In this document: positions 59,878 to 60,288 of the stretch, piece after piece
How the letters are laid out: the number at the start of each line of letters is the position of its first letter
Numbering within the stretch: position 1 is the stretch's first letter
DNA from: an uncultured bacterium
GTDB lineage: Bacteria > Cyanobacteriota > Vampirovibrionia > Gastranaerophilales > Gastranaerophilaceae
Assembly: GCA_946622415.1 (NCBI GenBank)
Contig: CAMOPX010000005.1
Location: 1 to 64,000 of the forward strand
Length of the DNA stretch: 64,000 nt
Direction of reading: 5' to 3'
Program-made: the position numbers and the translations under genes
Notes under the pieces: generated by a model
The model's database searches: none
Seen by the model: the letters and a program-made list of their open reading frames with translations, nothing else
Told to the model about the DNA's origin: nothing

Positions 59878-59911
59878 TTGAAAACTTAATATTAAAAATC
59901 GGGACGTAGCG
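59878..59911 (+). repeat. Promoter-plus-5'-tRNA fragment, copy 1
   Basis: Starts ttgaaaacttaatatt and ends with cgggacgtagcg, the first 12 bases of tRNA-Pro, then runs into a REP-like palindrome in place of the D-arm. The same arrangement recurs at 60095-60130 and at the intact gene (60195 onward). Confidence 0.75.
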
Positions 59912-59913
59912 TA

Positions 59914-59960
59914 CCCGAATCGAGTGAATTTAGCGATAGCTTAATGAACGAAGATGAGGG
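59914..59960. repeat. REP-like palindromic repeat, copy B
   Basis: Close match, on the opposite strand, to the element at 89-138. It keeps cccgaatc at one end and an altered gatgaggg at the other, with the shared core gtgaatttagcg. It follows the truncated tRNA-Pro 5' fragment directly. Confidence 0.6.
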
Positions 59961-60094
59961 CATGACTGTGCGGAATAAACGACAAAACGTTGAGTTTTGA
60001 CGTTTATGTAGTCCTTAGATAGTCGCCGTTGCGAAGTGAAGCGTTAGTGAAACGAGCGAAGAAATCTTTGATTTCACAGGCGAAAAAATAAAAA

Positions 60095-60130
60095 TTGAAA
60101 ATTTAATATTCAAAATCGGGACGTAGCGCA
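60095..60130 (+). repeat. Promoter-plus-5'-tRNA fragment, copy 2
   Basis: Starts ttgaaaatttaatatt and ends cgggacgtagcgca, the first 14 bases of tRNA-Pro. It is 95 bases upstream of the intact gene and 217 bases downstream of copy 1. Bases 60131-60190 are unrelated to tRNA. Confidence 0.75.
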
Positions 60131-60211
60131 CAGTTGGCGAGCGTGTCGATGCCAAAGAAAAAAGTAGCAGCGCTAACAAGCTGCCAATAATAAAAATTTA
60201 ATATTCAAAAT

Positions 60212-60288
60212 CGGGACGTAGCGCAGCTTGGTAGCGCACTACCTTGGGGTGGTAGGGGTCGCAGGTTCAAATCCTGTCGTTCCGACCA
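60212..60288 (+). tRNA. tRNA-Pro (anticodon GGG)
   Basis: 77 nt. Acceptor stem cgggacg/cgttccg with one G-T pair, D-arm gcgc/gcgc, anticodon stem ctacc/ggtag with loop ttggggt (GGG), T-arm gcagg/cctgt with loop ttcaaat, discriminator A and encoded CCA. Truncated 5' copies lie upstream and 3' copies downstream. Confidence 0.97.

Follow-up and report, generated by a model that had tools for sequence, protein, structure and literature searches.

The window, meaning the whole stretch of 64,000 nt that was analysed, corresponds to positions 1-64,000 of contig CAMOPX010000005.1 (assembly GCA_946622415.1) from an uncultured Gastranaerophilales gut bacterium, whose own genome (G000) amounts to 1.88 Mb. 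The window contained an intact tRNA-Pro(GGG) gene with copies of its 5' end upstream and of its 3' end downstream, and the following features were recorded at this locus and at one further site:

59839..59867 (+): candidate tRNA-Pro promoter TTGTGA-17-TATAAT, sigma-70-like, matching 10 of 12 consensus positions, by consensus match only
59887..59911 (+): copy 1, the leader followed by nt 1-12 of tRNA-Pro, from repeat comparison
59912..60084 (+): insert X1, a modular dispersed repeat with family members at 14 or more further sites in the genome
60098..60130 (+): copy 2, the leader followed by nt 1-14 of tRNA-Pro, from repeat comparison
60131..60190 (+): insert X2, with weak structure of its own (z -0.8)
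60170..60184 (+): segment of X2 complementary to tRNA-Pro (14 of 15 positions; 0 of 1000 shuffles as good)
60212-60288 (+): intact tRNA-Pro(GGG), gene identified in the sequence
60292..60321 (+): putative tRNA terminator, a perfect 12-bp inverted repeat and then a T run, from sequence inspection and not in the terminator-scan list
61136..61159 (+): copy of the tRNA-Pro 3' end, 24 nt, from sequence match
61143..61691 (+): 266-bp tandem units, two identical and the start of a third, from repeat search
25644..25727 (-): degenerate reverse copy of the Leu-type core described below, just downstream of tRNA-Met (25548-25621); a weak match (17.5 bits, E 0.017)

The leader together with the start of tRNA-Pro (12-14 nt) occurred three times, in blocks located at 59868-59914, 60085-60131 and 60180-60226, with gene-start positions at 59900, 60117 and, for the intact gene, 60212. 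An exact pattern search found AAAATCGGGACGTAGCG at 59895, 60112 and 60207, which confirmed the report of the first-pass annotation that this block is repeated twice upstream and again at the intact gene; a search of the 1.88-Mb genome gave neither a fourth exact copy nor a match to the reversed control pattern. Copy 1 was identical to tRNA-Pro over 12 nt within the gene and 5 nt upstream, and copy 2 over 14 nt within the gene and 19 nt upstream, each followed by divergence.

The two inserts were of different kinds. X1 belongs to a large family of intergenic repeats, modular and rich in palindromes (ACCCGAATCAAGTGAG...GAGGGCA...CACAGGCGG) with kin at 14 or more places in the genome (such as C11:27996, C3:119358 and C18:21026), often head to tail and at contig ends, and repeats of this type are probably behind assembly breaks. 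In the same genome, members of the family also stand beside a 5' fragment of tRNA-Lys(CTT) and a second Pro-like 5' fragment. A search of X1 for a segment complementary to the tRNA gave nothing better than shuffles. The complementary segment of X2 pairs with nt 12-26 of the intact tRNA-Pro (60223-60237), across the point at which copy 2 diverges. Judged from sequence, X2 with copy 2 fits the design of the tRNA-end elements described below, with a different core, while copy 1 and X1 resemble a unit in which the dispersed repeat has taken the place of the interior, or a composite unit. A model search for the Leu-type core gave no match at the Pro array, so that the units there represent other core classes.

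The first-pass annotation had presumed the repeated block to hold a promoter whose upstream copies might drive tRNA-half-like transcripts. The boxes in the block (ttgaaaa..ttaatatt) lie merely 2-3 nt apart, and the best sigma-70-like promoter occurs once, at 59839-59867, upstream of the entire array and ahead of copy 1. The repeated block is therefore not a promoter, and promoter-driven tRNA halves, which found no support, were rejected on the spacing and on the place of the only good promoter. Since this promoter precedes the array and the inverted repeat and T run come after the tRNA, the 5' copies probably lie within one long pre-tRNA leader.

Elements integrated at a tRNA gene as a rule leave its 3' part duplicated, and classical 3' integration alone was rejected as it leaves the 5' copies unexplained. 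The first-pass annotation had overlooked the copies of the 3' end downstream; besides the 24-nt copy, the 266-bp units start at 61143, 61409 and 61675, each opening with 17 nt (AAATCCTGTCGTTCCGA) from the 3' end of tRNA-Pro. The identical ORFs of 60 aa that were listed within these units are probably spurious. Between tRNA-Pro and its 3'-end copies, positions 60627-61040 (+) encode a protein of 137 aa that probably has a signal peptide and that matches Adhesin_E (surface-adhesin protein E) in Pfam. A neighbouring AAA ATPase was tried as a marker of the orthologous locus and had no relative among the genome contigs searched. Elsewhere in the window, the reverse core at tRNA-Met formed a second example, in which the repeat TAGCCCGGAG adjoins ACTCTGCCGA, and positions 18550-18684 (-) carried an ordinary ribosomal protein L10 leader (RF00557).

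A survey of 157 tRNA genes from five genomes of the same genus, with swapped flanks as the null, showed that such copies are not peculiar to tRNA-Pro. The gene's own 5' end was copied upstream in 30 cases (null 2.6, maximum 5.6), antisense copies, mainly of the D-arm, were present upstream in 16 (null 2.0), and the own 3' end was copied downstream in 26 (null 1.7), so that all three classes exceeded the flank-swap null from several-fold to more than tenfold. The 5' copies covered tRNA positions 1 to about 12, the antisense copies about 7 to 27 and the 3' copies about 62 to 76. Within the bacterium's own genome, tRNA-Lys(CTT) and tRNA-Leu(CAG) had the same architecture as tRNA-Pro; the locus survey added the 5' ends of Thr(GGT), Val(TAC) and His and the 3' ends of Arg(TCT), Arg(CCT) and Ser(GCT), and Lys(TTT) and Phe carried end copies in relatives. 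Whether a given tRNA was occupied varied by species within one genus, a patchiness seen in comparisons between species. Random scatter of the fragments in related genomes, which had been named beforehand as refuting, was not seen; each fragment lay at an end of the tRNA that it copies, at a constant distance within the gene. An exact pattern drawn from the Pro units was present in 24 stretches of GTDB genomes, nearly all labelled Gastranaerophilales or Melainabacteria, the remainder being a few labelled 'uncultured bacterium' and one Heliobacteriaceae with the same tRNA-Pro units at the locus, while the exact pattern GTGGCACTCTGCCGANNAAAA was not found in viral contigs. No published description of the tRNA-end insert pattern was found in the open-access literature. 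Two loci differed in form. Upstream of tRNA-Met in a related genome (L190, G009:C8) lay a longer pseudo-copy, exact over the first 29 nt of the tRNA, after which the body is still like a tRNA but diverged (25 bits against the tRNA family). Downstream of tRNA-Arg(CCT) in the own genome (L060, G000:C3), a 98-bp unit consisted of a decayed tRNA copy from the D-arm on, with an antisense D-arm before it; this unit was repeated at least partly, and its last 17 nt were intact.

The best-defined core was obtained by gathering units that begin with ACTCTGCCGA at the 5' ends of tRNA-Leu, Met and Pro and aligning the Leu units. It is a non-coding stretch of about 90-130 bp between the end copies, in units of 92-137 bp with one of 249 bp, and exact tandem copies of units were seen. 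The fold of the Leu units is a three-way junction; its closing helix, P1, is formed by the duplicated tRNA end and a segment near the other end of the unit. In an alignment not fitted to the structure, the covariation score was 0.210, against 0.070 for shuffled and at most 0.062 for slid controls, and 5 of the 7 P1 pairs were changed on both sides; covariation was also strong in 73 distinct matches aligned to the structure. One diverged outer copy (L281) kept P1 through matching changes. A search of 20 loci against Rfam 15 (E up to 2) returned tRNAs and chance-level matches only, so that no known RNA family was identified for the units at these loci. Matches to a model of the core, R1, were present in 87 of 117 genomes of the order, and among 292 sampled genomes of the phylum 83 had matches at E 1e-5, all from the bacterium's own family; in the genomes searched the core was found only in Gastranaerophilales. 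Nearly all strong R1 matches in the loci inspected stood directly before a same-strand tRNA or ran off a contig end. The core occurred at tRNA-Leu in most genera of the family, an excess that is partly query bias since R1 was built from Leu units, and this breadth also fits long vertical inheritance under selection. The same core sequence was common to unrelated tRNAs and distant genera, at the same position.

Among 100 core copies, tRNA 5' ends accounted for 47, reversed copies at 3' ends for 15 and tandem copies for 34, with 4 unresolved, a tally that favours cases with a second flank copy, which the copy finder demands, and that does not count independent events, the sequences being phylogenetically dependent. 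At either end the core sat 11 nt inside the tRNA, in opposite orientations, and the tRNA stayed intact; the insertion site was always before G-N-A. Clean single copies were flanked by direct repeats of about 18-27 bp with the tRNA complete, and in the clean 3' cases the repeats (25, 27 and 19 bp) extended into the trailer, as with AAATGCAAAAAATTTGCCGCGTCTC at tRNA-Phe and AAACCAAGAAATAATTTGGGTCCGGTG at tRNA-Lys of the related genome G009. Exact repeat lengths ranged overall from 5 to 43; recombination may have homogenised the leader repeats and blurred these lengths. The suggestion that the fragments could be debris of repeated recombination pointed in the right direction: the copies look like direct repeats left by insertions, and 3' duplications exist too. 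Taken with the unsupported tRNA-half-like transcripts, the first-pass interpretation was partly supported.

The internal segment that forms P1 matched its own junction at a mean of 8.05 of 10 positions, against 5.93 for swapped targets, and in most copies the match extended past the insertion point into the intact target. The triplet beyond the junction, which lies outside the duplicated flank, was TCC for GGA targets in 28 of 30 cases and TTC for GAA targets in 8 of 9; for GCA targets (Met, Pro and Lys) the rule was followed in 0 of 5. At tRNA-Leu(CAG) the combination was GAA/TTC in the own genome and in G009 and GGA/TCC in G015. Unit classes at Val, Lys, Phe and Asn had longer D-arm complements, and a clear complement (S) was lacking in 18 of 62 copies. 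That P1 neutrally sequesters the additional tRNA strand was rejected as an explanation, as it leaves the complementarity beyond the junction unexplained.

The repeats are interpreted, with confidence somewhat above even, as target-site duplications from small non-coding elements that would have inserted 11-17 nt inside tRNA genes. As far as sequence comparison can tell, the units are most likely mobile elements, or descendants of such elements, with a preference for tRNA ends and with restoration of the target, base pairing probably directing them; both the mobility and this guidance are inferred. In the proposed mechanism, the complementary segment would act as a guide, in the form of single-stranded DNA or RNA, and pair with the intact target, and insertion would duplicate the interrupted end and so regenerate the target, through which further copies could enter and build arrays. 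With the promoter remaining upstream, 5' inserts would join the tRNA leader and be removed in maturation. A fuller version is offered tentatively and is more doubtful than the interpretation of the repeats: gene-less elements would choose tRNA ends by internal guide-target pairing across the insertion point, regenerate the target and build harmless arrays at essential genes, with guide and target co-varying as tRNAs diverge. As for the enzyme, no Y1_Tnp gene was found in the own genome and one was found in 1 of 19 genus genomes, no RVT_1 was found in the carrier genomes G000, G001, G003, G004 and G007, and no integrase gene was found inside the short units. A RAYT or a reverse transcriptase was therefore rejected as the present driver, these genes being missing from the own genome and several well-completed carrier genomes. 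No terminal inverted repeat of the element's own was seen, the closing helix using the tRNA end, and an autonomous partner was not found.

An alternative that we regard as rather unlikely is that the units serve tRNA leaders as cis-acting RNA switches. The antisense segment would then have two possible partners, the duplicated 5' end, which would let the tRNA fold, and the real tRNA, which would be blocked, and the choice would set the output. The units do lie inside the probable tRNA transcription unit, their fold covaries, the antisense matches the real tRNA past the duplicated part, L281 retained P1 by its matching changes, and the unit is kept at tRNA-Leu over most of the family. A cis-regulatory leader would keep a single orientation relative to its gene, whereas copies at 3' ends were reversed: the same conserved strand was found in reverse at the 3' ends of Phe, Lys, Leu, Arg and Met tRNAs, where a transcript would carry the complement. 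Conservation of one strand in both orientations argues for a DNA-level or mobile nature rather than for leader RNA alone. Presence is also patchy between species, and untouched tRNA genes of the same species manage without a unit.

Less probable again are satellites of a tyrosine integrase, that is, minimal attachment-site cassettes at tRNA ends with the tRNA end duplicated as the att core. Such satellites would account for the tandem arrays and for a topology of tRNA-gene integration with restoration, and integrases that use the 5' half (pTN3-like) exist (PMC8371274). Against them, the repeats take in native sequence outside the tRNA, about 100 bp is very short for double-stranded circles, and a covarying fold and a junction-spanning complement are foreign to such att sites. 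A mutational by-product, by which template switching and tandem inversion duplication at tRNA dyads give a sense-antisense-sense order that slippage amplifies, would suit that order, the many hairpins, the exact tandem copies and the degraded tRNA copy with antisense D-arm downstream of tRNA-Arg(CCT), and is the least probable of the three, as local mutation is no source for a core common to unrelated tRNAs and distant genera at the same position, an objection that applies to the Leu/Met/Phe/Lys/Arg family, in which the shared core was shown, and leaves some other classes, the window's X2 included, outside it.

The inserts at tRNA ends matter more for their spread across the order than for this one locus; a whole bacterial order carries very short elements at both tRNA ends. 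If the complementary segment is a guide, they would represent a new and compact form of targeting by base pairing, able to insert into essential genes without harming them; if the units work as RNA instead, they would represent a new layer of control over tRNA production.

Several known systems share features with these units, and the published parallels each match the pattern in part. REP/BIME sequences mobilised with RAYT (Y1) are likewise palindromic, fold as single strands and have a foot motif (GTAG/GTGG) that is resembled here, whereas Y1_Tnp was missing from this genome and present in just that one of the 19 genus genomes; to our knowledge, REP sequences are not specific to tRNA ends and RAYT-type insertion makes no such duplications. 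In group II introns (EBS/IBS) and in the guides of IS200/605, an internal sequence pairs with the flanking target and fixes the insertion site, and the likeness of target pairing is an analogy only; unlike group II introns, the units have no intron domains and no reverse transcriptase, are unspliced and duplicate their target. Tyrosine-integrase elements, including the pTN3-like ones whose use of the tRNA 5' half is rare in bacteria (PMC8371274), also insert into tRNA genes, duplicate an end and leave the tRNA intact, whereas the units here are gene-less, about 100 bp long and mirrored at both ends, with repeats beyond the tRNA and a junction-spanning complement. Casposons similarly have target duplications that overlap tRNA gene ends, but these take in only 4-7 nt of the 3' end, and the elements are large and encode Cas1 and PolB (PMC4046053). 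MITE-like repeats (ERIC, YPAL/RU-2 and RPE) are also small, non-coding and rich in hairpins, YPAL having target duplications of 3-26 bp beside dyad symmetry and RPE entering RNA genes (PMC2229807). The units described here were likewise non-coding and shorter than 200 bp (bar the one of 249 bp), with target-site duplications of 19-27 bp in the clean 3' cases; they differ from MITE-like repeats in that no terminal TA or terminal inverted repeat of their own was seen, in occurring in effect at tRNA ends only, at a fixed position inside the gene, and in carrying a segment complementary to their target.
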